From Achatina immaculata (Eukaryota > Mollusca > Gastropoda > Stylommatophora > Achatinidae): a stretch of DNA of 64,000 bases. Position 1 is the first letter of the stretch. Each line of letters starts with the position of its first letter. Of the stretch, positions 15,580 through 62,415 are shown piece by piece. Where the stretch lies: the NCBI GenBank assembly GCA_009760885.1, contig CM019696.1, positions 46,942,017 through 47,006,016 on the forward strand, in the 5' to 3' direction. Position numbers and translations under genes: made by a program. Below the pieces are notes generated by a model. That model was not told the origin of the DNA. It saw only the letters and a program-made list of their open reading frames with translations, and did no database searches.

Positions 15580-16478
15580 CAGACTGTGCGATGCCATCTT
15601 TGTCGACTTTAAAATGGCATTTGATATGATTGATCATGGTATTCTTGTACAAAAATAGAGACTTATAGACTGCACTCTGACTTAACAAAAAGAATTGCAT
15701 CATTTCTTTAAGACAGACAGCAGGCAGTATTCTTCAACAATTCTCTATCAAATTCTGCTATAGCTGGCACTGGTGTTCATCAAGGTTCTTTTCTATGCCA
15801 GTTGCTCTTTGCTATCTATATAAATGATCTTTCACTTCATCTTAAACGCTCTTCTTGTGACCTTTTTGCTGATGATTGCACAGTCTACACCAGGGACTAC
15901 GACTGTAGTAACCTAGAATCAACTTTTCAGGTCGAGTTAAACAATCTAATTAGATGGAGTATCAACAAAGGTTTGATTATAACTACTGATAAAACAAAAT
16001 CAATTCTCATAACAACAAGACAGAAACTACAAAACGGGGGGGGGGGGGGTGGGGGGGGGGGGGGGGGGGGGGCGGACAACACTTCGGCTCTGAACGGAAA
16101 CATCACAGACAGAAAACGTTAGCGAGCACAAAACACTAGGTTATATTATTGACCAACATCTGACCTGGAACTCTCATATTCAAGATCTAACAAAACTCAT
16201 CGCATAAAAAGTATACCAGTTAACCAGAATTAGGCATTCATCGATCAAGACACAAGGAAGACATGCTGCATATCACATATGCAAACACATTTAGACTATT
16301 GCTCAACACTCTGGGATGGTTGCTCAGTGTCAAATAGAAGAGGTTTTACTCACTTCAAAAGCGAGCAGTAAAGCTTATTAGCGACAAAGATCAAGCACAA
16401 ACAACCAACTAGCACAAACGATTAAAAATACTGCCTCTTAAGAGCAGGTTCCTCTTCAACAAAGCCAAGTTGATACAT
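15580..16478 (+). pseudogene. L-A LINE, reverse transcriptase region
   Basis: Remnant of the RT domain of a jockey/CR1-like non-LTR retrotransposon (clade not certain). DFKMAFDMIDHGIL near 15607-15648 is the block with the first catalytic Asp. After a frame change, 15802-16030 gives LFAIYINDLSLHL, the catalytic FADD box (FADDCTVYTRD) and TTDKTKSILI. A G homopolymer of about 35 bases (16036-16072) then disrupts the frame. Further on, decayed pieces match the C-terminal region seen intact at 24.2 kb (QTHLDYCSTVWDGCSVS). It is dead: frame changes, stops and an insertion at 16479. Confidence 0.85.
16036..16072. repeat. G homopolymer
   Basis: About 35 G with one T and then a C at the edge, inside the L-A coding region. 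The exact length is likely to be unreliable in any assembly. Confidence 0.9.
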
Positions 16479-17228: not shown

Positions 17229-18547
17229 CAAGGTCCGACAATTAAGTAATGAGACTAATTCCATTTAAAAAAACAAAATAAACAACAGTTGAAGATGTAA
17301 CCCGTATTTTATTCAAAGTAAGTTCCTTGTGCATTGATACAGTTATTGGCACGATCTAACAAACACTGGAACGACCTCTGCAGTTCTGTTGTTGGTATGG
17401 CCCTTAAACTCGATATTATGGCCCGTTTGATGTCATCAGTATCGTCAAAGAAGCGTTCTTTCAATGGTAACTTTAATTTTGGGAATAGAAAATAATCTCA
17501 GAGAGATAAATCTAGGGAATAGGGTGGATGGTTGAGAACACATTCTTGTTTTTGGGCCAAAATTTCCTGTACGACTACCACTCGGTGACCCGGTGCATTA
17601 TCACGAGGAAGGAAAAAAATTGCCAGGTGTTGAATACTCAGGTCAGACTCGGAGAATCCTTTTCAATAGGCGTTTCAAAATACTTAAATAAACTTTCGCA
17701 GTGACAGCCTGTCCCTCTGGAATACACTCTTTGTGAATAACTCCTTTGCTGTTGTAGAAGCACACCAACATTGTCTTCACTTTCGATTTTTGAAGACGAA
17801 TTTTTTTGCCTTTTGATGATGATGATGATGACTTCTACTGAGTACTTTGGCGTTTAGTAATGGGATCATAGCAGAAAATCCATGTTTCATCCTCTGCAAT
17901 AGTCAGTTTTAAGAAATGTTTATTTCTGTGACACGTTTTGATGATGTCTTTTTCGTACTCAACACGCTGATGTTTTTGGTTATCAGACAACGTATGTGGT
18001 AGAAACCGGCAAGCAACTTTTTTCTTGCCCAAATCTTCCGCTAACATTTTACAAATGGTCTCTTGGTTAACACCATATTTATCTGCAGTCATTCTCACAG
18101 TCAAAGAACGATCATCTTGTGTCTGCTCTCTGACTTTTGCAATGAGTTCTTCATTACGAACAGAAATTGGGCGTTCATGTTTAGTTGCATTTATAATCGT
18201 TTCCACACCACTTTTGAATTGTGAATACCACCTGACTATATGTGCATGAGATAAACAATTATCCACATAAACATGTCGCATCAATTCAACTGTCTCAGTC
18301 GCACTTTTTCTGAATTTTAAACAGGATTTAATGTTAGCTTTTTGCTCCATGGTGATTATGTGACAGTGCACTTCTAACTAGGTCAACAAAATGGCGGATT
18401 GTTTGTCGTCTGCTTATCTGCCGGCGATGAAAAGTTGTCAGATCGTAGATGAAGGTTGCTTCTTTGGATTCCATGCTTTGCTCCACAGATTACATTTTTG
18501 TCTTGGCCATAATAAAATCAGTCTCATTACTTAATTGTCGGATCTTG
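17229..18547 (-). mobile_element. Mariner-family DNA transposon, complete ends
   Basis: 1319 bp. The left terminal inverted repeat starts CAAGGTCCGACAATTAAGTA and the right one (reverse complement) CAAGATCCGACAATTAAGTA. About 28 bp match with one difference, and both are flanked by TA (17227-17228 and 18548-18549), the canonical Tc1/mariner target duplication. It carries a decayed mariner transposase on the minus strand. Ends this well kept suggest insertion more recent than the LINEs nearby. Confidence 0.93.
17290..18350 (-). pseudogene. Mariner transposase pseudogene
   Basis: The likely start is the ATG at 18350 (MEQKANIKSC); an upstream in-frame ATG exists at 18371. The N-terminal half is open to 17838: a helix-turn-helix region (LSHAHIVRWYSQFKSG, then YGVNQETICKM) and the first catalytic motif, EDETWIF. 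A GAT-repeat expansion at about 17813-17833 lies near a stop and frame change. Later frames retain SKGVIHKE, the second motif RDNAPGH near 17590-17610 and a third-motif Asp (DYFLFPKLK) near 17480 that directly follows a UGA. So the D,D34D-type residues are all present, but no single protein can be made. Confidence 0.88.
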
Positions 18548-25564: not shown

Positions 25565-28500
25565 TATTAGTACTGACACACATCAGTCTTCCGGTGTGAC
25601 GTGAAAAATGGCGGACGTTTATTTAACTCGCTCGCCGGCATGCAGAAATCAGCGGAATTCCGCTTGATCTGTTACACATCCTGCAACGGGAGTTGAGCAT
25701 AAGGCTAGCAACCTTATCCTGGGACCTATCTAGAGGTGACTCTAGATGGGAAAAAAACTTCGTTATGGAAACTCTCAAAGAAACCAACCGAGCATCGGGG
25801 ATGCCAACTCCGAGGAGCTCATTCGTCGGCCCTAAACATATGACAAAGATTGGATTTTGGAATGTGAGAACGATGGAAGCGCCAACAAAAACTACTTAGG
25901 TCATCAAAGAAATGGAGAGATACCACCTAGACATACTGGGCATTAGTGAAATGCAATGGCCAGAAGCAGGTAAAAGATCGGCGGAAAACGGTAAGTTAAT
26001 AATACATTCAGGCAGAGACGACGGGAAACTTAAAAAAGGGGTAGGTATAATTATGTCAAACGTAGCAGCAAAGAGCCTTATAGAAATAGAACCAGTGAAC
26101 AGTCGTATAATAAGATCACGATACAACCTAAGACACGGAAGAATGACAATAATACAGTGTTATGCACCAAGGAACGGCGCAAATGATTAGGTGAAAGACG
26201 ATTTATATCACCAACTACAACAAATCATTAACAAGGTCCCTAAACACGACATCCTAATTGCTATGGGGGACTTCAATGCTAAGGTAGGGAAAGATAACAC
26301 CGACGTTTAAAAAGTAATGGGAAAAGAAGGAACTGACATGGTAAATCAGAACGATGAAAGATTAATTGAAATATGTCTAACAGAGGGCATGGTCATTGGA
26401 GGCACAATATTTCCACACAAAGAGAATCATAAAACAACGTGGTTGTCTCCAGATGATAGAACTAGAAACCAGCTAGATCATTTTTGTATTAGAAAGCAAT
26501 ACAGAACATCCCTGATAGATGTAAGAGCATATAGGGGTGCAGATGTCAACTGTGATCACAATTTGTGGATAAGGAAAATAAAACTAAAACTGAAAAGCCA
26601 ACACAAGAAATCAATATACAGAAAGATAAACAGCCACAGCCTACAAGAAGAGAATACTAACAGTAATTTCAATCAGGAACTTGCCAATCATTCCACAACA
26701 CTCAGTGAAGTAGAGGAGACAGGTATAGATGAATTATGGAATTCTTATAGCACAGCCATAACCACAGCAGCAAAAGCAAGCGCTGGACTGAAAAAAACCA
26801 AATAGCAAAGAATAGATATCAGAAAACACATGGAAATACATACATGAAAGACTAGCAGCCAAATTAGACATGATGAATGTAAAAATAGACCTTGGAAAAG
26901 ATCTGGCGAAAGCAACATACAAAGAAATAGACAAGAAAGTAAAAAGTTCAGCTAGAAGGGATAAAAGAGAATACATAGACAATATGGCGAAAGAGGCAGA
27001 GAAAGCAGTAAAAACAGGAGACAAGGAAACTTTATATAACATACAAAAGAGGCTAACAGGTACTATTACATCTAAAGAAAGATCAATCCTTAGCAAAACT
27101 GGAACCCTATTAACATCAAGTAAAGACCAAAAGCAAAGATGGGCTGAACACTTCCAAGAAACATTTAATCCACCACACCCAAAAGAATTGTTAAACCTTG
27201 AAACCGACTTACCAGCCACACAACTAAATGTCAACCTAGATGAAATTACATTGCATGAAATTGAAACAGCAGTGAATTTAATGGTTAACAACAAAGTTGC
27301 TGGTGAAAATGAAATAACACCCGAAATGTTAAAAGCTATCAATAGTTACAACATGAGACAACTACAGAGAATGTTTAATAATATTTGGAAAGAAGAAAAG
27401 GTCCCTTCCAAAAGTAAAAAAAGGAATCATTGTTAAAATACCTAAAAAGGCAACCTTAGTGACTGTAACAATTGGAGAGGAATAACCTTAGTACTAGTTG
27501 TGTCAAAAGTATTTTCCAAGGTCATTTTGATTAGATTTAAAGATATAGTGGATACAGCAATGAGAGAAGAACAAGCAGAATTTCGAAAAGGGAGAAGCTG
27601 TCTCGACCAGATCTTTATTCTAAGAATAATACTTGTAGAACGTATTGAAAAGCAAAAACCATTAACTGAACTTCATAGACTTTAAAAAGCCATTTGATAG
27701 CATACACAGAGATTCATTGTGGAGAATTTTAAATATATATGGAATACTATCTAAAACTGTCAACATCATTAAGGATCTCTATAATGGATATGTTTGTGCA
27801 GTCAAAACAGAAGAAAGGATGAGCGAATGGTTCCAGATTGAAACAGGCGTGAAACAATGATGTATACTGTCTCCTTTCCTTTTTGGAATTACAATAGACT
27901 TCATAATGAAAAAATGCTGCACAAGTAACACAGGTATTGACTGGGTACATGAGACCCAACTAGAAGATCTTAATTTTGATGATGTCATAACTCTTATCAT
28001 TATCAATGTGAATTCCATGCAAGAAAAAACAAATATCCTGTCTTCACCGGCTAGCAAAATAGGACTTGAAATTAACAAGGACACAACAAAAATAATGAAA
28101 CTTCCCATTAATCAAAATGGAAAAATACGAGTAGAAGGGACAGATATTGAAGAAGTCAATCAATTTGCATACCTTGGCAGCTACATAGACCAGGATGGTG
28201 ACACTAGAAAGGAAGTTAGGATCAGAATTGCAAAAGCAGCATCAATCTTCAAGAATCTTGAGAACATATGGAATTCAAAAGTTATAAGCACAAAAACCAA
28301 GTTAAGACTATTCAATTCAAATGTAATATCCACCCTCATTTATGCATGTGAAAGCTGGAAAACAACTAAAGAAATAGAAAAGAAATTAGACTCTTTTGAA
28401 AAAATTTACCTAAGGAAAATACTCGGCAACAAGTGGAACGAATTCAAGAACAATGCAGAGATAAAACAGATAATTGAACAACAACCAGTCTCATGGGTGA

Positions 28501-28764
28501 TCAGGAAAAGGAGATGGACATATGTTGGTCACGTGATGAGAAGAAACGATCAGAGAATTCAAAAACAAGCTATCAAGTAGAACACAACAGGCCGAAGAAA
28601 AAGAAGCAGACCGCGTGAAACTCTAAAGAGGACATTGTTAAGAGAGGTCCAAATAACAGGCATAAAATCCCTTGATGAGGTTGAAAAGATCGTCGAAAAC
28701 AGGAAAAATTGACGAACTACCTTGCGAGTCTATGTGATGTTTAACGGCACGGGAAGGATATAAG
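25565..28764 (+). mobile_element. L-C LINE (RTE type), probably full length
   Basis: AACATCACG occurs at 25556-25564 and again at 28765-28773, a candidate 9-bp target duplication. It would make the element 3200 bp, a normal RTE length. Order: 5' UTR, apurinic-type endonuclease, RT, C-terminal region, short 3' UTR ending GGAAGGATATAAG. Other copies of the family: 43.4-44.0 kb (minus, truncated) and 63.15-63.55 kb (minus, internally deleted). Multiple stops make it inactive. Confidence 0.75.
25693..28722 (+). pseudogene. L-C endonuclease/reverse transcriptase ORF, decayed
   Basis: The endonuclease part (25840-26560) shows KIGFWNVRTM, ILGISEMQW (catalytic-site region), GVGIIMS, GDFNAKVG, and the region RTRNQLDHFCI with AYRGADVNCDHN. 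RT part: VAGENEITPEML, NNWRGITL, EEQAEFRKGRSCLDQIF, the block FIDFKK-FDSI with the first Asp, KQ-stop-CILSPFLFG, and the active-site region LNFDDV. There the usual F-A-D-D has lost its Ala codon and reads F-D-D. The C-terminal part is open for about 220 codons (27906-28580) with YACESW, LRKILGNKW, RRWTYVGHVMRR. At least two frame changes and seven stops. It would have copied its own RNA at a nicked target. Confidence 0.88.
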
Positions 28765-28974
28765 AACATCACGCCAATATTAAAGGTCCCTTAATGAAGC
28801 TGCGTAATACAATGGAAAAGTGTGCTACGGAAGAGACTCTATTACACTGTTCAACACAAGAAACGCAACACTACTGTAGTCGTAACTGGCACCAAATTTC
28901 TAACTTGTATCAACTTTTTATTTTAGGACATTAATGTTTCAATGAAGAAACTTTAAGACTTTAACAATGAAATG

Positions 28975-29324
28975 TTAAAGTAAGAGAACAAATATTGTAG
29001 GATTAAACCTCGAAAAAATCGTAGACAAAGCACTTTAGTGAGACGTAAGAGAAAGAAAAATCACAAGAGAATTACCTGGGATTCGAACACGGACTCCGGT
29101 AGGACGAGCAGCCGTTTAGTTGTTCTCTCGTGGCTAGACGGCTGCTCGTCCTACCGGAGTCCGTGTTCGAATCCCAGGTAATTCTCTTGTGATTTTTCTT
29201 TCTCTTACGTCTCACTAAAGTGCTTTGTCCACGATTTTTTCGAGGTTTAATCCTACAATATTTGTTCTCTTACTTTACCGTACCAAAACCTCGTAGTTTC
29301 CTATTTATAAAAAATTGTTCCTTA
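28975..29324. mobile_element. Palindromic tRNA-derived SINE dimer, copy 1
   Basis: Two inverted arms of about 140 bases (28975-29115 and 29138-29278) are nearly identical; I see only a couple of differences. A short unmatched centre lies near 29116-29137. Each arm read outward contains a pol III A-box-like TGGCTAGACGG (right arm, 29131) and a B-box-like TGTTCGAATCC about 33 bases further on. The arms then end CTCTTACTTTAC. The right side runs on with CGTACCAAAACCTCG. The flanks carry a perfect 13-bp duplication, TAACAATGAAATG (28962-28974 and 29325-29337), which points to target-primed retrotransposition. It sits in the 3' region of the Tc1 element. Confidence 0.85.
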
Positions 29325-30284
29325 TAACAATGAAATGGTGTTCATTAAATTTGGTTTGGACTTTTATTATTTGCTACTGAACCTCCGTTTCAGTAAGATT
29401 TATGGCCTCCTCTGGCCTGTATCAGAGAACGACATCTCCTTGACATGGATCCGATTAGCCGTTGGATCTGTTTTTGTGGGATGGCTGCCCACTCTTCCCG
29501 CAGTGCAAGAGAAAATTGTTGGAGATTGGTTGGCGCCACGTCTATCTGGCGGACTTGTCTGATGAGTTCATCCCATAAGTGTTCTATTGGGTTCATGCCT
29601 AATGACATGGATGGCCACGGAATGGTCTGGACGATGTTGTCAGCGAGAACTGGGTGGTGAGTTGTGCCACATGAGGTCGAGCATTATCCTGCTGAGAAAT
29701 CGACCCTGGTGCAGCCAGAAGTGGAAGGACGTGAGGACGAAGAATTTCAGCAATGTATCGTTGGGCATTCAGGCGGCCTTCTTTTTTGCACCAGGTCACT
29801 TTTTCCCATGAAGGTGATCGTTCCCCACACCCATACACTTCCACCACCATGTGGAGGAGCCTCATCCACGCAGTTCTGGGCGTAGCGCTCATGCGGTAAA
29901 CTCTTCTATAGTGTTGCTGGAACAGAAAGAATGATTCATTACTAAACCAAACCCTTCTCCAATCATTCACAATGGTCCATTGACGATGCTGGTTCGCCCG
30001 CTGCAGTCGGTTCTGGCGATGCCGGTCCGTAAGAACAGGACCTCTGTAGGGTCTTCTAGCCCAAAGACCAGCGTCGTGCAACCAGTTCCTGGCCATTTGA
30101 TCTGAAATTCGACGAGCTGCTGTCATTGACTGGACTGTTGATGACGCAGATGCAAGTCGATTCCTGAGGTGACGCAGCCGTATAATGCGGTCTTCGGCAG
30201 CAGTTGTGACTATGGGTCATCCACTGCGCGACCGGTCTGCAACTGAGCCAGTTTCTTGAAATCGTCTCCAAAGGCGACTAATGG

Positions 30285-30291
<7 letters not shown>

Positions 30292-30328
<37 letters not shown>

Positions 30329-32925
30329 CCTTAAGTGCCCAGGGCACATGGGGCTTCCGCAAGGGTTTTCCACAAATGCCTGTCCTTTGCCTTTTTTTTC
30401 TGCTCTTGCCCAGGTGAGCCCTCTGTTGCTCAACATCCTCTCTGTTGTTCTTCTCCATGTCTCTTTTTGTCTACCCTTACTTTTATTCCCCTGTGGTGTC
30501 CATCTTAGTGCTGTTTTTGGTAGTGAGTTATCAGTCATTCGGAGCACATGTCCCAGCCATCGCCAGCGTCTTTCCTCAATAACTGCTGTCAGTGGCTTCA
30601 TCTGCATCTCTGCCAACAAGATGTTATTTCTTATGGTGTTTGGCCAAAATATTGTTCTAATTCTTCGTAAACATTTAGTCTGGAAAGAATTTAACTTGTT
30701 TTCTATGGTTTTGGTGATTTTCCAGCATTCACTTCCATAGAGTATTACACTTAGAACATTACTCTTAAATATCCTGATTTTCGTATTCATGCTTAGTTTT
30801 TTAGATTTCCATATAGTCTGCAGCACTGGAAAAGCCTGGTTTGCTCTAGTAAGTCTGCTGTTGATGTCCTCTGTACTGTCTCCATTTTCTACTACTTTAC
30901 TGCCAAGGTATACAAATTCATTGATTTCCTCCACTAACTTGCTATCTACTCTGAGTACATTTCTGTTGTTCACATTTTGCTTCACTAACTTTGTCTTTCC
31001 TACGTTGATCTTTAGACCTATGTTGTTTGCATTCTGAGTTAGCTTGTTTATTTTATCTTGCATTTCTTTGTGGCTGCTTGACAGTAGACAAACGTCGTCC
31101 GCAAAGTCAAGGTCCTCCAGCACTGTGTTGAGGGTCCATTGTAATCCTCTGCGATTGTCTGATGTAGCCTCCTTCATTAACCAGTCTACTGGCAAGATAA
31201 ATAATGTTGGTGATAGTACACATTCCTGTTTCACTCCTGTTTGTACCCTAAAGCTGCTGGAGGTATGTTCTCCACAGATAAATTTGCACTGAAAACCCTC
31301 GTATTACATTCACTATCTTATGGGGGAGGCCATGCCATCTTAGTATTTTCCACAGTGCATCTCTGTTGACACTGTCAAAGGCTTTCTCAAAATCTATAAA
31401 CAATGCATATGTTGTGCTATGCCACTCATTTGCCTGTTCTAATATTTGTCTAAGTACAAATATGTGGTCTATGCATGATCTTCCTTTCCTAAATCCTGCC
31501 AGCTCTTTTCAAAGTTTTTCCTCAAGTGCTGGTACAATTCTGTTGATGATTATTCTGCAAAATACTTTGCTGGTGAGTGGCAGGAGGGTAATGCCTCTCC
31601 AGTTCCCGCAATCTCTGAGTTCACCCTTCTTTGGTAGTTTTACTATAAGACCAGTTTTCCACTCCTCTGGAGCTTTTTCTAGATCCCAAATTTGTTGTAG
31701 TATCCGGCAAAGTTGTTTTGGTGTTTCTGTTTCATCTGCTTTCAAGATCTCAGCAGTCACTTCATCTTCACCTGGTGCCCTATCTAATTTTAGCTTCTTT
31801 ATTGCCTCCTTTACTTCACTTATTGTTATTGGTCCTGTATTGATGTTTAGTTCCCTGTTTGCTTCAGGTATGTCTATTGTTTGTGCTGCTTGTGTTCTGT
31901 TTAGTAGGGTGTTAAAGTATTCCTTCTATCTTTCAATTTTTTCTCTTTCTCCACTGACCAGTTGTCCCTTTAGTGTCCTTACTGCACTCTCACATCTTGT
32001 GCTGAAGTTACCTGTCATCTGCTTTGTGATTTTGTATATGGTTTTCATGTCATTTGCATATGCTGCTTTCTCTGCTGCTTCTGCTAAGTTGTCATAGTAT
32101 TGAAGTTTATCTTGACGGCATGATTCCTTCACTTCTTTGTCTTTTTGTGCATAATTACTCAAAGCTTGTTCTTTTAGCCTTTGTGATTTGGTGTTCAGTA
32201 ATTTTTTCTTGATTTCTTTTCTTTGCTCTATCTTTTCCCATGTGGTCTTGCTTATCCATTCCTCTTTTCTCCGTTTCCGATATCCTAGCACCTCTTTTGC
32301 TGTTTCCTGTAGCGTTTTATTGAACTCTAGTATGGACATTTCTGCTTCGTTTTGTAAGACACTGAAGCGGTTCTTAAGTGCTATTGAGAATTCGTTCCTT
32401 GTTTGCTGGTCTTTCAGTTTTCCTGTATCAAAATGTATCTTTCTGTGTTCTCTGATTTTGGCTTTCCTTAATGTTAGTTTTATTTTTGCTGCCAGAAGGT
32501 TGTGATCACTTCCTACATCTGCTCCTTTCCTTGCTCGCACATCTTGTAGTGACCGTTTCCACTTGTTATTTATTAGTATATGATCGATTGATTTGGTTTT
32601 CTGTGGTTTTATCTTGGGACCTCCAAGTCACTTTATGGATGTTTTTATGTTGGAAAATTGTCCCTCCAATGGTCATCATATTTTCTTCACAGAAACTGCA
32701 GTTTTTCTTCATTTTCATTTATTTCTCCGATTCCTTCTTTTCCCATGATTCTTCTTCTATCTTCATTTCCCTCACCTACTTTTGCATTGAAGTCGCCCAA
32801 GATGAGTAGCATATCATGCTTGGGTATTGTTTCTACTGTGGCTTGGAGGCTGTTGTAAAAATCTTCTTTTAATTCCTCTTCAGCTGCTTGTGTTGGTGCA
32901 TAACAAACTATAATAGACAGCTTCG
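30292..32925 (-). mobile_element. L-D LINE (RTE type), 5'-truncated, inside the Tc1 transposase
   Basis: AATGGTGCATCT is at both edges (30280-30291 and 32926-32937), a perfect 12-bp target duplication. The 3' end is at the left with a (GA)n tail, visible as (TC)n at 30288-30325 on the plus strand. The 5' end is truncated inside the endonuclease domain. A 3' fragment of the same family lies at 14.96-15.08 kb. Confidence 0.9.
30327..32925 (-). pseudogene. L-D endonuclease/reverse transcriptase ORF, decayed
   Basis: It begins within the endonuclease: KLSIIVCYAPT, LLILGDFNAKVG (catalytic Asp-Asn motif), RKGADVGSDHNLL. A charged linker follows (32540-31926). RT: LPKKGELRDCGNWRGITLLP, an FDSVNRDAL-type block after a frame change, KQECVLSP, and an intact active-site box LDFADDVCLL at 31093-31123. 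Then YLGSKV, ILYGSECWKI, KCLRRI, ERRWRWLGHVLRM and a basic end. The last 318 codons (31234-30278) are open; the start of this frame is simply the first Met after a frameshift. More intact than L-C, but still broken at about 31240-31510 and 31760-31930. Confidence 0.88.
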
Positions 32926-41070: not shown

Positions 41071-41559
41071 TATTGCTGTCAGTCCTGAAATCTAACCGTT
41101 GTCCACGAAATATATGGTAATGGAAACAATTTATCCGGCTTTTATAGCTAATATGAAATTAAAAAGCCGGTATATTTGTCCGGCTTTTAAATGTATTTAG
41201 AAAAAAAAAGTGGAGGGAAAAGCCGTGTTGGCGATTTTAACTGCCCGGTAGATTTCGGTACCGGCTCTGCCGCGTGGTCCACTGCTAGCAGCTATAACGC
41301 CAGGGTTGCTTTATAAAGTGCCCTATGTCTCTTTCAAAGATTTATATGTCTTTAATGAGTGTCTTACAGCTACATTTGATTGGTCGATTGACTGGTTTAT
41401 GACCAACCTGTAACCAGGGATTTGTTACAGATCACTGAAGTCCTAGCGTCCTAGCTATAGTCTTGAAGCACAGGATCACGTAAAATGGAGAGTTGATTGT
41501 GATGGATATCCTAACTTCCAGCTTTTACATACGCTACGCTCCGCTGTCGTGGGGAAAAA
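41071..41559. other. Unassigned sequence with a hairpin
   Basis: A stem near 41160-41190: AAAAGCCGG, 9-nt loop, CCGGCTTTT; a related ATCCGGCTTTT lies just upstream. No gene recognised. Confidence 0.45.
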
Positions 41560-42660
41560 CTTTTTAAACAATGTTGTGTGGAAAAACACTTTTGACACTA
41601 TCGTGTGGAAAAACACTTTTGACACTATCGTGTGGAAAAACACATTTAAAACTGTCGTGTGGGAAGACACTTTTGACACTATCGTGTGGAAAAACACTTT
41701 TGACACTATCGTGTGGAAAAACACATTTAAAACTGTCGTGTGGAAAAACACATTTAAAACTGTCGTGTGGGAAGACACTTTTGACACTATCGTGTGGAAA
41801 AACACTTTTGACACTATCGTGTGGAAAAACACATTTAACACTGTCGTGTGGAAAAACACATTTAACACTGTCGTGTGGAAAAACACATTTAACACTGTCG
41901 TGTGGAAAAATACATTTAACACTGTCGTGTGGAAAAACACATTTAACACTGTCGTGTGGTAAAACACATCTAACACTGTCGTGTGGAAAAACACATCTAA
42001 CACTGTCGTGTGGAAAAACACATTTAAAACTATCGTGTGGAAAAACACATTTAACACTATCGTGTGGAAAAACACATTTAACACTATCGTGTGGAAAAAC
42101 ACATTTAACACTATCGTGTGGAAAAACACATTTAAAACTATCGTGTGGAAAAACACATTTAACACTATCGTGTGGAAAAACACATTTAACACTGTCGTGT
42201 GGAAAAACACATTTAACACTGTCGTGTGGAAAAACATATTTAACACTATCGTGTGGAAAAACACATTTAACACTGTCGTGTGGAAAAACACATTTAACAC
42301 TGTCGTGTGGAAAAACACATTTAACACTGTCGTGTGGAAAAACACATTTAACACTGTCGTGTGGAAAAACACATTTAACACTGTCGTGTGGAAAAACACA
42401 TTTAACACTGTCGTGTGGTAAAACACATTTAACACTGTCGTGTGGTAAAACACATTTAACACTGTCGTGTGGTAAAACATTTAACACTGTCGTGTGGTAA
42501 AACACATTTAACACTGTCGTGTGGTAAAGCATTTAACACTGTCGTGTGGAAAAACACATTTAACGCTGTCGTGTGGTAAAACACTTAACACTGTCGTGTG
42601 GAAAAACACTTAACACTGTCGTGTGGTAAAACACTTAACGCTGTCGTGGTATAAACACTT
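41560..42660. repeat. 27-bp minisatellite
   Basis: About 41 units of CGTGTGGAAAAACACATTTA + ACACTGT, with variants TTTGACACTAT and AAAACTGT in the left part. Since 27 is a multiple of three and most frames lack stops, ORFs above 300 codons appear on both strands (CGKTHLTLS and FHTTVLNVF repeats). I do not treat any as genes. Confidence 0.97.
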
Positions 42661-44087: not shown

Positions 44088-44350
44088 GTCGTCTGAGTGG
44101 CGAAGTGGTTAGTGCACTGGTCTCTCATGGCGAAGGTCGGGGGTTCGAATCCGGCCGGGGGCGCCCCAGTCACCCAGGCTGTAGAAATGGGTACCCGACT
44201 TCTTCTAGAGTTGGGGAAGAAAAGGCGGTCAGGCGTGATATTGACCATATCACCCTCTAGTGTGCTGACAGGTCAAGGAAAATATGGGCACTAACACCAT
44301 ATCCCTGTATGCCTCTAAAGCATGACAGGACTACCTTTACCTTTGCCTTT
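44088..44350 (+). mobile_element. tRNA-derived SINE, head type 1
   Basis: The head has an A box TGGCGAAGTGG at 44098, TTAGTGCACTGGTCTCTCAT, and a perfect B box GGTTCGAATCC at about 44143. Body: GCCCCAGTCACCCAGGCTGT, AGAAATGGGTACCCGACTTC, GCGTGATATTGACCATATCA, CCTCTAGTGTGCTGACAGG. The tail is (CCTTTA)n-like. It is a typical pol III SINE; no duplication found. Confidence 0.88.
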
Positions 44351-44429: not shown

Positions 44430-44825
44430 TATTATTAAAGGTAAGAGGTATAATCCTCGTCTCCAAACCACTAAGGCATACTAGGGATATAGTGTAAGGT
44501 TCGTATCTCCCATGACCTTCGGCACATGAAAGTCTGATGTGGTCAGTATCACGCCTGGCACATGAAAGTCTGATGTGGTCAGTATCACGCCGGCCACATG
44601 AAAGTCTGATGTGGCCAGTATCACGCCTGGCACATGAAAGTCTGATGTGGTCAGTATCACGCCTGGCCGCATTCACCTTCCCAGATTTCTCTTGTACTCA
44701 TTTTTAGAGGCTGGGTCAAACCCGGGGGCTTTCTGGTGTGTACCAGAAAAAAAAATCCCACAGCTGGGACTTGAACCCGGCACCACTGGATTAGTAAACC
44801 GAGCACCTAACCATTCTAACTATTC
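44430..44825 (-). mobile_element. tRNA-derived SINE, head type 2, with internal 36-bp expansion
   Basis: Minus-strand head: GAATGGTTAGGTGCTCGG, then B-box-like GGTTCAAGTCC at about 44775. The body matches the copy at 37.94-38.22 kb. The segment GGCACATGAAAGTCTGATGT + GGTCAGTATCACGCCT is repeated four times (44521-44664), whereas other copies have it once. Confidence 0.8.
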
Positions 44826-45664: not shown

Positions 45665-47010
45665 AAATGAGTGTATAAAAATAAATCAGGTGCAAAGGAA
45701 TGTGATGACCACCGGACTATCAGCCTCTCATATCACGTAACGAAGCTACTTCTGAGAATCATTATGACAAGAACAAGGAAAAAGATAAAAATGGAAATAG
45801 CAGATGAACAGTTTGGATTTGTTGAAGGAAAGGGACTACACAATGCCATTTATGCTATACGAACACTAACAGAAAGAGCTTTAGAAGTACAGAAATATCT
45901 CTACTTATGCTTCATTGATTACATCAAGGCATTCGACAAGGTGAAACAATGAAATTATTAAAATGCTTAAAGACATCAATATAGACGGCAAAGACCTGAA
46001 GATTGTAAAACATCTATACTGGCAGCAAGAAGCAGCAGTTCGAGTTGAAAATAGAAATAGAAAATATCAACCTATAAAACAAGGAGTGTGACAAGGATGT
46101 GTACCATCTCCAGACCTTTTTTCTACAACGAGAATATTCTAAGAACAATCATCACAGAACCAGGCATAAAAATTGGAGAATACAATACTAACAACCTTCG
46201 GTATGCTGACGACACAGTACTGATAGCTGAGAACCAACAAGACCTGCAAAATCTCTTGGATAAAGTCGACAAAGAAAGTGAAAAGAAAGGTCTTACTTTG
46301 AACATCAAAAAGACAGAGACTATGTTTATATCTAAGAAACAGAATCCACCGACATGCAGTATAAAATTAAACGGAACTATTCTAAAGCAGGTGCAGCAAC
46401 TCAAATACCTTGGAGCAGTAATAACTTCAGATGGGAAATGCAGAACAGAAATTAGGAACAGAATAGGCCAAGCAAAGATTGCATTTCAGAGAATGAGAAA
46501 CATATTATCCAACACATCCTTATCAATGAATGTTAAAAAACGAGTCCTAAAATGCTATATTAAATCTATCTTGTTATATGGAAGTGAATCATGGACAATA
46601 GGCAGGTCTGCGAAAAAATCATTGGAAGCAGCAGAAATGTGGTTTATTAGAAGAATGTTGCGAATTACCTGGACAGCAAAAATAACTAATGAAGAATGTA
46701 TGAGAAGAGCTGGAGAGACAAAAAACCTTGTCAAAAAGATAAGAGAGAGACAATGTACTTTCACAGGACATGCAATGAGAAGAGGCGACATTGAAAATAT
46801 TATAATAACAGGAAAAATAGAAGGAAAAAGAACAAGAGGAAGACCAAGAGAAATGATACTGGAAGTCTGACGGGATGGTGTGAGAGGAGATCACCAACTG
46901 AGCTGATGGCCTGCATGAAGGATCGTGTACTCTGGAGAAGCATAATAGCCAACGCCAGTCGGCACTGCACCTGATGATGATGATGATGATGACGATGATG
47001 ATGATGATGA
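45665..47010 (+). mobile_element. L-E LINE, 5'-truncated, (GAT)n tail
   Basis: Carries RT and C-terminal region; ends SRHCT-stop followed at once by about ten GAT units (46973-47010). 3' ends of the same family lie at 61.16-61.51 kb (minus) and, decayed, at 59.96-60.31 kb. Confidence 0.85.
45671..46966 (+). pseudogene. L-E reverse transcriptase ORF, decayed
   Basis: The truncated start lies in RT: DDHRTISLSYHVTKLL, ADEQFGFVEGKGLHNAIYAI, and CFIDYIKAFDKV with the first catalytic Asp. A frame change covers about 45950-46090 (DLKIVKHLYWQQEAAVRV, KQGV-stop-QGCVPSPDLF). Then 260 codons are open (46088-46870): catalytic box LRYADDTVLIA, KKGLTLNIKKTETM, LKYLGAVITSDGKC, ILLYGSESWTI, EMWFIRRMLRITW, GHAMRRG, KRTRGRPREMIL. 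A last frame change leads to PTELMACMKDRVLWRSIIAN. The YADD box is intact, but frameshifts disable it. I do not assign the clade firmly. Confidence 0.88.
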
Positions 47011-48312: not shown

Positions 48313-48324
48313 TACCCCGTCAGA

Positions 48325-48585
48325 GTGGCGAAGTGGTTAGTGCAATGGTCTCTTATGGCGAAGGTCGGGGGTTCGAATCCTGCCGGAGGCGCCCCAGTCA
48401 CCCAGGCTGTAGAAATGGGTACCTGACTTCTTCTGGAGTTGGGGAAGGAAAGGCGGGCCAGGCGTGATACTGGCCATATCACCCTCTAGTGTGCTGACAG
48501 GTCAAGGAAAATATGGGCACTAACATGATATCCCTATGTGCCTCTAAGGCATGACAGGATTATCTTTACCTTTACCTTTACCTTT
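48325..48585 (+). mobile_element. tRNA-derived SINE, head type 1, with target duplication
   Basis: Begins GTGGCGAAGTGGTTAGTGCA (A box) with B box GGTTCGAATCC at about 48374; the body is as at 44.1 kb and the tail (CTTTAC)n. TACCCCGTCAGA lies at 48313-48324 and again at 48586-48597, a perfect 12-bp target duplication. It inserted into the left flank of an older SINE. Confidence 0.92.
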
Positions 48586-54370: not shown

Positions 54371-54543
54371 AACTCCTTGCCCCTCCCCCTGTTTCAAGTT
54401 CGTGATGACACAAAACACTTTTTGAAGTAACTTTTTAACAAGGAGACACCAAGTTTTTATAATCTGAGGTTGCCCCGCACATTGTAGATAAGTGTATGCA
54501 CGATGGCTCATGTTGTAAGTAGTGACAGCCCAACATACAACGA

Positions 54544-54920
54544 GGCTTTGGTATAGTAAAGTAAGAGAACAAATTTTGTATGATTAGACCTCGAAAAAAT
54601 CGTAGACAAAGCACTTTAGTGAGACGTGAGAGAAAGAAAAATCACAAGAGAATTACCTGGGATTCGAACACGGACTCCGGTAGGACGAGCAGCCGTCTAG
54701 CCACGAGAGAACAGCTTACTATCGACTTAGCACTAGGGGTGCTAGTTGGCTAAGTCGATAGTAAGCTGTTCTCTCGTGGCTAGACGGCTGCTCGTCCTAC
54801 CGGAGTCCGTGTTCGAATCCCAGGTAATTCTCTTGTGATTTTTCTTTCTCTCACGTCTCACTAAAGTGCTTTGTCTACGATTTTTTCGAGGTCTAATCAT
54901 ACAAAATTTGTTCTCTTACT
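54544..54920. mobile_element. Palindromic tRNA-derived SINE dimer, copy 2
   Basis: Arms 54562-54732 and 54752-54920 are inverted copies; by eye I see no mismatch over about 170 bases. The centre, ACTAGGGGTGCTAGTTG, is short. The right arm contains A-box-like TGGCTAAGTCG and TGGCTAGACGG, B-box-like TGTTCGAATCC, and ends TTTGTTCTCTTACT. The left outer end extends further (GGCTTTGGTATAGTAAAG). CAACATACAACGA flanks both sides (54531-54543 and 54921-54933), a perfect 13-bp target duplication. It differs from copy 1 at several positions, each shared by both arms of one copy. Confidence 0.88.
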
Positions 54921-54933
54921 CAACATACAACGA

Positions 54934-55386
54934 CATCTAAACAAGCCAATACGTCGACGATGATTTTGAAAACAACTCAGGATCGAGCTTTACATTGAAG
55001 AACAGCTCCAAGCACAAGTCCAGCACCAAGATTTCACATTCATGCCGTGTTCAATCACTTTCTCAGTACTCGTGCAGACAGATAAAGACCCTCACATATC
55101 GATACTCTAGCTTCCACACAGGTGTTTTCTTTCCCAACAGCGCCCCCCTCCCTCGTGACTAAGTTCGATAACAACTCAGTCACATGACCAAATGACCAAC
55201 TGTAGTAAAGTTTGACCAGCCGGGACACACCTAGTAAGCCATATACCGCTATGCTTGTGGGGGTTTTGTTTTCATTATCTCTCTTGTTATTTGTTTCGGT
55301 ATTTATGTTCTGTTTTGCGTGAGTCTTCAGTCTGCTAAAGTCCAAAATGTTGCCCAAAATGGTGTGGTACAACAGGACTTGTTCCA
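54934..55386. other. Unassigned sequence
   Basis: No gene recognised. Confidence 0.4.
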
Positions 55387-56565: not shown

Positions 56566-56639
56566 AATATATAATGTAAAAAGGTTCAACCAGTGCAGAC
56601 GCTCCATCCGAATCTATTTCGTTGAATGCAGCCAGAATG

Positions 56640-57440
56640 ATAGCAAGTCTACAGTAAGAATGATAGCAAGTCTACAGTAAGAATGATAGCAAGTCTACAG
56701 TAAGAATGATAGCAAGTCTACAGTAAGAATGATAGCAAGTCTACAGTAAGAATGATAGCAAGTCTACAGTAAGAATGATAGCAAGTCTACAGTAAGAATG
56801 ATAGCAAGTCTACAATAAGAATGATAGCAAGTCTACAGTAAGAATGATAGCAAGTCTACAGTAAGAATGATAGCAAGTCTACAGTAAGAATGATAGCAAG
56901 TCTACAGTAAGAATGATAGCAAGTCTACAGTAAGAATGATAGCAAGTCTACAATAAGAATGATAGCAAGTCTACAGTAAAAATGAAAGCAAGTCTACAGT
57001 AAGAATTAAAGCAAGTCTACAGTAAGAATTAAAGCAAGTCTACAGTAAGAATTAAAGCAAGTCTACAGTAAGAATTAAAGCAAGTCTACAGTAAGAATGA
57101 TAGCAAGTCTACAGTAAGAATGATAGCAAGTCTACAGTAAGAATTAAAGCAAGTCTACAGTAAGAATTAAAGCAAGTCTACAGTAAGAATTAAAGCAAGT
57201 CTACAGTAAGAATGATAGCAAGTCTACAGTAAGAATGATAGCAAGTCTACAGTAAGAATGATAGCAAGTCTACAGTAAGAATGATAGCAAGTCTACAGTA
57301 AGAATGATAGCAAGTCTACAGTAAGAATTAAAGCAAGTCTACAGTAAGAATTAAAGCAAGTCTACAGTAAGAATGAAAGCAAGTCTACAGTAAGAATGAA
57401 AGCAGGTCTACAGTAAGAATGAAAGCAAGTCTACAGTAAG
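56640..57440. repeat. 23-bp minisatellite
   Basis: About 35 units of AAGAATGATAGCAAGTCTAC + AGT. A variant AAGAATTAAAGC occurs in two clusters (about 57000-57075 and 57140-57200, with two more at 57320-57355), which suggests block duplication. Confidence 0.97.
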
Positions 57441-58369
57441 AACATACTGAGCATTAACTACATCAGGAAAACTAGCGGCATTTAGTACTATTAATGGCGA
57501 CGGAGGTAGGTGGCTCGATTCAGCCCGGAGATGTCGCAGTTGTAAAAAAATTCTGAGGCTCGTTATGTTAAGTTAGTTCCAACAATCCCCAGGTTCTAAT
57601 TCTTCAACCTTTATCAGCCTGGTCACCTGGGAACTGTATCATCTACGCGTGCCCGAACAACAATTTAGCAATTATTGCAAGAGCGACAGTACTCAACAGA
57701 AATAACTACTCTGAACTCGTTACTTGTAATCCAAGAGTCAAAACCAGTTACTTATTACACAGTCACCACGAGAAACACTAGACGCCATCGCTAGACTAGA
57801 TTGCAACACCATAATACATAAAGCAATTAGCTGCATTTATCTCCATACATAATATTGGCTCAACATAGCACTAATCCAGTTAATTACTCATTTACCAAAT
57901 TCTGCCATCCAAATAATAACTAAAATATATCATCTCATGTGAGTCACCCAATCTTCAGAGCTATGTTCTGTATTGCTTACGGAACATTCATAGTTGCTAC
58001 ATATTATTCATGTCTATTCAACGGGACTATATCTGGTCTCCATGACTCGATACTTGAATTCTTGGTGCAAAACACAAAATATTTAGATGCACCAACACAT
58101 TGATGAACCACACATAATCAAATCAAATTGTGAGCTACAAAATCAATCCTCGCAACTACAACATGGTGACAACAATGATTCTTCAGTATGAATCATGAGC
58201 TCACTCTTGTGTTATGAGAGCAAGCACACCGCACGTAATTAACATTTATAAAACTCAGAATGATTGAACAAGATGAAGGAGATGATGAATTAATGCAATG
58301 CAATAGCACAAAATGCACAACTAAGGAAAACTGGCGTAATAATCAATGAAAATTGTGAAATACGAGAAC
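57441..58369. other. Unassigned AT-rich sequence
   Basis: No gene recognised. In base composition it resembles the interior of the LARD-like element at 3.8-6.2 kb, but I can point to no shared words. Confidence 0.4.
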
Positions 58370-61788: not shown

Positions 61789-62194
61789 TCCTGCTGTGTG
61801 ATGCATCAGTTTACGAAACCACATTCCGGTCACATATGTATCTTCCAGTCTCTCTCTTTCTCTCTCACTCTCTCTCTCTCTCTTTCTCTTTCTCCCTCTC
61901 TCCTTCTCTCTGTCTTTTTCCCATGGTTTCTTCTATGCATGTCAGATTTCGACGTTTATAACTTCTCTCCGTCTTCCAGCAATTTACAACCTAATTCACT
62001 AAATAATTAAAACATTTTTTTTTCAAAGTAAGCAAAAAACAACTTTGCTACAGTAATACAAACAACCAATGAATCCTGTAAATTGAAAGTTGGTTTTTTT
62101 TAAAAAACAGTGTTATATTTTTTTAAAAACAGGGGTTACTCCTCTAAATCACTACATTTTCCAACAAATAATTTTTTTTTCATTATAAACCCCA
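61789..62194. other. Unassigned sequence
   Basis: Contains a (CT)n tract at 61850-61920. Nothing else. Confidence 0.4.
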
Positions 62195-62415
62195 CTGGTC
62201 TCTCATGGCGAAAGTCGGGCGTTCGAATCCGGCCGGAGGCGCCACAGTCACCCAGGCTGTAGAAATGGGTACCCGACTTCTTCTGGAGTTGGGGAAGGAA
62301 AAGGCAGCCAGGCGTGATACTGACCATATCACCCTCTAGTGTGCTGACAGGTCAAGGAAAATATGGCCACTAACACCATATCCCTATGTGCCTCTAAGGC
62401 GTGGCAGGATTACCC
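62195..62415 (+). mobile_element. tRNA-derived SINE, head type 1, 5'-truncated
   Basis: Starts within the head (CACTGGTCTCTCATGGCGAA), retains the B box GTTCGAATCC at 62221, and has the full body (GCGCCACAGTCACCCAGGCT, GCGTGATACTGACCATATCA). The A box is absent. Confidence 0.85.

Follow-up and report, generated by a model that had tools for sequence, protein, structure and literature searches.

Two palindromic insertions of a SINE-like element in Achatina immaculata and their possible origin by fold-back of the first cDNA

How does a short element come to lie in a genome as two nearly complete copies of itself, joined head to head within one target duplication? The question is raised by positions 54544-54920 of the window, the 64,000-nt stretch of Achatina immaculata DNA analysed here. 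A preliminary description of this segment had reported inverted arms of about 170 bases without a mismatch, a centre of 17 bases and a flanking duplication of 13 bp, and had presented the whole as a SINE dimer with tRNA-like promoter boxes. It had also inferred that the unit was inserted as a palindrome or became one during insertion.

Two palindromic insertions in the window

Analysis of the sequence bore out the reported geometry: the arms are 172 nt long and 100% complementary, the centre has the length described, and the flanking duplication is an exact repeat of CAACATACAACGA (Table 1). This segment (copy 1) is a single insertion enclosed by one exact 13-nt duplication pair, and CAACATACAACGA is absent from the rest of the window. 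In the following, arm A denotes the arm that extends further at its 3′ side, and arm B its partner. The left arm of copy 1 starts 16 nt inside the duplication, and the right arm directly adjoins the duplication, which it meets at ...CTCTTACT. A self-comparison of the window revealed that the family is represented by another, independent palindromic insertion (copy 2, 28975-29324), which the preliminary description had overlooked. Copy 2 is flanked by an exact repeat of TAACAATGAAATG, found nowhere else in the window, and its arm B terminates in ...CTCTTACTTTA, followed by one unmatched T.

Table 1. Coordinates of the two palindromic insertions and their parts in the window
Feature	Positions	Strand	Remarks
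Left target duplication, copy 1 (CAACATACAACGA)	54531..54543	+	13 nt, exact repeat; two sites in window
Arm A tail, copy 1	54544..54559	-	16 nt outside palindrome
Arm A, copy 1	54560..54731	- (element sense)	172 nt, 100% complementary to arm B
Centre, copy 1 (ACTAGGGGTGCTAGTTG)	54732..54748	.	17 nt, internal ACTAG/CTAGT stem
Arm B, copy 1, without tail	54749..54920	+ (element sense)	172 nt
Right target duplication, copy 1 (CAACATACAACGA)	54921..54933	+	13 nt, exact
Left target duplication, copy 2 (TAACAATGAAATG)	28962..28974	+	13 nt, exact repeat; two sites in window
Unmatched single T between duplication and arm B, copy 2	28975..28975	.	by eye
Arm B, copy 2, without tail	28976..29119	- (element sense)	144 nt, 142 complementary to arm A
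Centre, copy 2 (TTGTTCTCTCGTGG)	29120..29133	.	14 nt
Arm A, copy 2	29134..29277	+ (element sense)	144 nt
Arm A tail, copy 2	29278..29324	+	47 nt outside palindrome
Right target duplication, copy 2 (TAACAATGAAATG)	29325..29337	+	13 nt, exact

The chance of such duplications was estimated with pairs of real 60-nt segments, spaced 300-440 nt and drawn at random from the window outside tandem arrays. Only 2 of 8,000 pairs shared at least 13 nt, and in each case it was copy 2 itself that had been sampled. When the tandem arrays, which cover 15,174 of the 64,000 bases, were included, 189 and 191 of 4,000 real pairs shared at least 13 nt, indicating that array masking matters for this control. In control sequences from a first-order Markov model, 1 and 2 of 4,000 pairs reached this length.

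A profile built from the four arms matched, at E 1, these four arms and nothing more in the window, where no single-arm copy (monomer) of the family was found by this search. Both palindromes account for all insertions of the family in the window (2/2). One of the two had been picked for its palindromy, leaving an unbiased sample of 1/1, and the one-sided 95% lower bound on the palindromic fraction that follows from 2/2, at least 22% with one copy preselected, compares with about 0.02% for germline Alu in excerpts of PMC12016303. Self-reverse BLAST (E 1e-3) gave as other self-palindromes in the window a 43-base AT run and one of 30 bases. The joined flanks (empty site) of either copy had no match in the window beyond short chance ones. 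No locus in either viral_contigs or genome_contigs carried a 32-base exact arm pattern, and a distant blastn of the element against phages and plasmids gave no match, results that are little informative because these collections are viral and prokaryotic.

A different SINE-like family served as a control. Its three good copies (44090-44350, 48318-48579 and 62193-62412, the last 92% identical to the second) are monomeric and all on the plus strand; there are seven additional fragment matches (70-96%), among which the closest two in inverted orientation have 78% identity and are separated by 159 nt. These data suggest that palindromy is not common to every short element in the window. The units of a 36-nt tandem array at 44521-44667 resemble a segment of this control family, so that the array looks like a tandemly amplified part of it.

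Promoter motifs and class of the element

The preliminary description had noted box-like motifs reading outward in each arm, and these were found as described in both arms of copy 1: an A-box-like TGGCTAGACGG is followed by GTTCGAATCC, which starts 34 nt further on. Arm A of copy 2 has the same arrangement, whereas its arm B shows the B-box motif only. An exact B-box motif is consequently present in all four arms, and in three of them a loose A-box-like motif precedes it by 34 nt; a strict A-box pattern matched in one of the four arms and at a different place, the end of copy 1's right arm that faces the centre. Eight sites in the window match the B-box motif GTTCGANNCC, where 0.70 would be expected: four lie in the palindrome arms, three in the control family, which also carries the A-box-like GAGTGGCGAAGTGG, and one, at 1369, in neither.

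Both insertions have an exact 13-nt target duplication, within the variable range of about 5-20 nt seen with SINEs, and a single tailed 3′ end, the combination expected of a retroposon inserted by target-primed reverse transcription (TPRT). No tRNA was recognised by homology: ARAGORN found 0 genes, and Rfam returned no tRNA at gathering score for the whole window and, in a scan of 54500-54960 with E up to 10, only two sub-threshold miRNA matches, which lie on the hairpin. Runs of T5 and T6 are expected to stop Pol III, and both occur downstream of the boxes in all four arms, so that the body is not free of strong Pol III terminators. When arm B was folded as RNA together with its right flank, 197 shuffled sequences out of 200 proved at least as stable, implying that this arm alone is without RNA structure by the shuffle test. 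A protein search for contigs carrying the element, made with the reading frame that crosses arm A of copy 1, gave no candidate. Taken together, the short length, the box motifs and the 13-nt duplications fit a SINE, whereas the tRNA results, the T5/T6 runs and the tail, which outside the two copies has no more than chance matches in the window, go against the label; the element is SINE-like, and the label of a tRNA-derived SINE is only partly supported.

A MITE or foldback DNA transposon has fixed terminal inverted repeats at both ends and a short duplication typical of its superfamily. This candidate was rejected, given that the insertions have one variable tailed end (16 or 47 nt) and 13-nt duplications.

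Formation of the palindromes

In the assembled sequence, the arms are more alike within an insertion (172/172 identical in copy 1 and 142/144 in copy 2) than between insertions. The 137-nt body common to the four arms has five variable columns, of which four split copy 1 from copy 2 identically in both arms and one sets arm A of copy 2 apart from the other three arms; one extra difference between the copies lies at the edge of the copy 2 centre. If arms changed independently, such an overlap of differences would have a probability of 3.6e-7, suggesting that each pair of arms was made from one template, or was equalised later. The centres of the two copies are different, and the arms of copy 1 extend further upstream than those of copy 2; with both centres and arm starts unlike, the two dimers look separately made. 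Arm B of copy 2 is contained within arm A at both ends.

Only arm A carries a tail, in both insertions, and the two tails are related, with 29 matches in 33 aligned bases over a stretch that includes the arm end and 7 duplication bases. Searched against the window for the tail of a partner LINE, the copy 2 tail matched copy 1 and short chance matches only. The duplication bases beside the copy 1 tail (TCGT in element sense) are the same as the next bases of the copy 2 tail, a match that may represent 4 nt of pairing between primer and template. The ends of arm B in the two copies lie at most 3 nt apart in element coordinates, and no microhomology was seen by eye at either of the two arm B junctions.

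How these features arose can be explained in several ways. The explanation to which we lean, though with slightly less than even confidence, is that both insertions belong to one SINE-like retroposon family and that each was a single event whose product was already palindromic through fold-back of the cDNA. We infer from the layout an RNA intermediate, the fold-back, the enzymes involved, the cause of the stop in arm B and the closing of the last junction. A staggered cut of the target would leave 13-nt overhangs that become the duplication, and one of the target 3′ ends would prime reverse transcription within the 3′ tail of a monomer RNA, generating arm A. The 3′ end of the cDNA, at or near the 5′ end of the RNA, would fold back via a few paired bases, corresponding to the centre, and the folded cDNA would copy its own strand toward the tail to generate arm B. 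Synthesis of arm B would halt just short of the tail, which we conjecture might still be covered by RNA or protein, and the new end would be joined to the other end of the target.

Fold-back accounts for a single duplication pair, the likeness of the arms, the difference between the centres and the restriction of the tail to arm A. The nesting of arm B of copy 2 within arm A supports it, since this is what self-copying requires, as do the arm B junctions, at which no microhomology was seen, and the ability of both centres to pair as a short stem and loop: given both arms, the copy 1 centre folds as ACTAG/CTAGT with a 5-nt loop and a 2-nt bulge, and the copy 2 centre folds as three pairs around a 14-nt loop, plus a mismatch. 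However, fold-back does not predict that arm B should stop within 3 nt of one element position despite tails of 16 and 47 nt. The priming pairing is also weak in copy 2, where three pairs are followed by the mismatch, and ambiguous in copy 1, whose 3′-truncated piece favours a different stem. Given that no monomer was seen in the window, the rate of fold-back would need to be very high, and a later equalising of arms could mimic copying from one template. The 12-nt near-repeat of copy 2, TAGTTGTTCTCT / TATTTGTTCTCT at 29117-29128 and 29259-29270 (11/12 identical), is shared by the 5′ part of the element, at the centre, and the region near the 3′ end of arm A; this similarity between 5′ part and 3′ end could affect where strands pair or stop.

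The near-constant outer end of arm B, which resembles a fixed 5′ end and whose junction lacks microhomology, would also be expected if the palindrome were itself the inherited mobile unit, with a hairpin RNA that runs from the outer end of arm B to the tail of arm A and is inserted whole. This reading, which we regard as unlikely, fits the finding that both insertions are palindromic with no monomer in the window, and takes the different centre of copy 2 as a later deletion: copy-1-like arms joined at a common AGC give the copy 2 centre, save two C-to-T differences. It accounts for the stop of arm B and the absence of monomers but leaves the different centres unexplained, and the body differences common to both arms mean that equalising of the arms must be added. 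Moreover, because the box motifs point outward, transcripts made from them would omit the other arm, and reverse transcription would have to pass a hairpin whose folding energy is about -340 kcal/mol. Alternatively, both target ends might prime on two RNAs, or on one RNA twice, and the two cDNA 3′ ends meet and cross-template. Each arm would then be primed at its own flank, matching the observed layout, and if the copy 1 centre is the element 5′ sequence of arm B, then neither arm was copied in its entirety from its partner. Although twin priming of this kind is the accepted account of inverted L1 (excerpts of PMC2912911 and PMC12016303), the inverted part of the window palindromes is not largely non-overlapping, the overlap being 144 and 172 nt compared with a median of 12 bp in inverted L1 with overlapping cDNAs (PMC12016303, in excerpt). 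Microhomology at the upstream junction, usual in 5′-inverted L1, where it is present in 577 of 605 cases and lacking in 28 (PMC2912911, in excerpt), was likewise not seen by eye at the arm B junctions of the window palindromes, which are two junctions only. Within each insertion the source variants of the two arms invariably agree, an argument of little power with two copies. Priming on two RNAs seems unlikely here.

That two monomers were inserted separately at one place in opposite orientation, or that the palindromes are inversion artefacts of assembly or reads, is very improbable. Perfect palindromes are difficult to sequence and clone, according to PMC4057610, which would favour an artefact, but an inversion artefact would also mirror the flanks and would make no 13-nt duplication, and at both loci the mirroring ceases within the element on the A side; as far as the assembled sequence can tell, an assembly artefact is unlikely. 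Had a second monomer been inserted, another duplication would be expected at the centre, and none was seen in either copy; the near-repeat of copy 2 is internal to the element, since the same letters occur inside the copy 1 arms. A nested double insertion was rejected on these grounds. The preliminary inference that the palindrome was formed before or during insertion is supported by one duplication pair enclosing both arms, with none seen at the centre, and by copy 2, which has the same layout with a different centre.

Known systems and genomic surroundings

Inverted germline Alu insertions in humans were counted as 1/5,554 (PMC2912911, excerpts) and 1/5,936, about 0.02%, with 1/130 quoted for somatic Alu (PMC12016303, excerpts); the view that a head-to-head inverted dimer is not a standard SINE form fits these germline figures. 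For L1, the inverted fraction is 30.9% in the former excerpts and 18.4 and 21.9% in the latter. The probability of observing two palindromes in two insertions would be 3e-8 at the Alu rate of 1/5,554 and 0.095 at the L1 rate of 30.9%, so that the contrast is striking against Alu and not against L1, in a sample that is small and partly self-selected. Among the results listed by searches of openly licensed PubMed Central papers, no title or opening of an abstract described palindromic or head-to-head inverted SINE insertions as a family trait.

The closest parallels differ in several respects. A precedent comes from R2 proteins in human cells, with which the 3′ end of the cDNA was described as priming synthesis on the strand to which it belongs, ahead of upstream junction formation (PMC11371274, excerpts); the upstream target junction then contains element sequence in antisense, as it would after fold-back in the window. 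Those were engineered transgene insertions and one category among several, whereas the window palindromes are natural and short, with a nearly complete arm B in 2/2. Insertions of 5′-inverted L1 and Alu share one duplication pair around an inverted part followed by a normal part and a 3′ tail, but, in the excerpts of PMC2912911 and PMC12016303, the inverted part is mostly a different or barely overlapping portion of the element, whereas in the window palindromes it repeats nearly the whole element. In chromosome fold-back, a free DNA end pairs with itself over 2-8 bp in 13 junctions and is copied, the loop staying as a spacer; these inverted duplications are, however, of megabase scale, start from a broken chromosome end and have no target duplication (PMC3907307, excerpts). 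The window palindromes resemble tRNA-derived SINEs, including Twin SINE, in being short and non-coding with box motifs and target duplications, but they are head-to-head and no tRNA was detected in them. The dimeric SINEs known to us, e.g. Twin SINE, are head-to-tail.

The findings suggest that the copying step by which this element is inserted can fold back on itself. To our knowledge, second-strand synthesis and closure of the upstream junction are the least understood step of TPRT, and a natural family with near-complete fold-back copies would record the second-strand step in the genome, many times if the family is abundant. It is doubtful, though conceivable, that the palindrome is the normal product of this family, with most insertions passing through a self-primed hairpin cDNA whose second strand ends at a defined point before the tail; head-to-head dimers would then be the rule and not a rare error. 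Insertions of this kind also create perfect hairpins, from which double-stranded RNA (with editing or small RNAs) and fragile DNA might arise.

Broken pieces of LINE reverse transcriptase lie at 27861-28580, 30278-31303, 46061-46870 and 15712-16122, three of the four with DUF6451 matches, one of them below cut-off; the pieces are possible helpers of the palindromic element. Transposase fragments at 17838-18377 and 29602-30216, with HTH_48 (Mos1-type) and HTH_Tnp_Tc3_2 matches, are of mariner and Tc type. A protein search with a LINE fragment gave 27 hits among 239 candidates. Together with the minisatellites, the LINE and transposase pieces are in keeping with an animal genome. Minisatellites are very dense across the window (112 overlapping TRF rows), for example a 23-nt unit present in 35 copies at 56634-57442 and a 27-nt unit present in 41 copies at 41544-42648.
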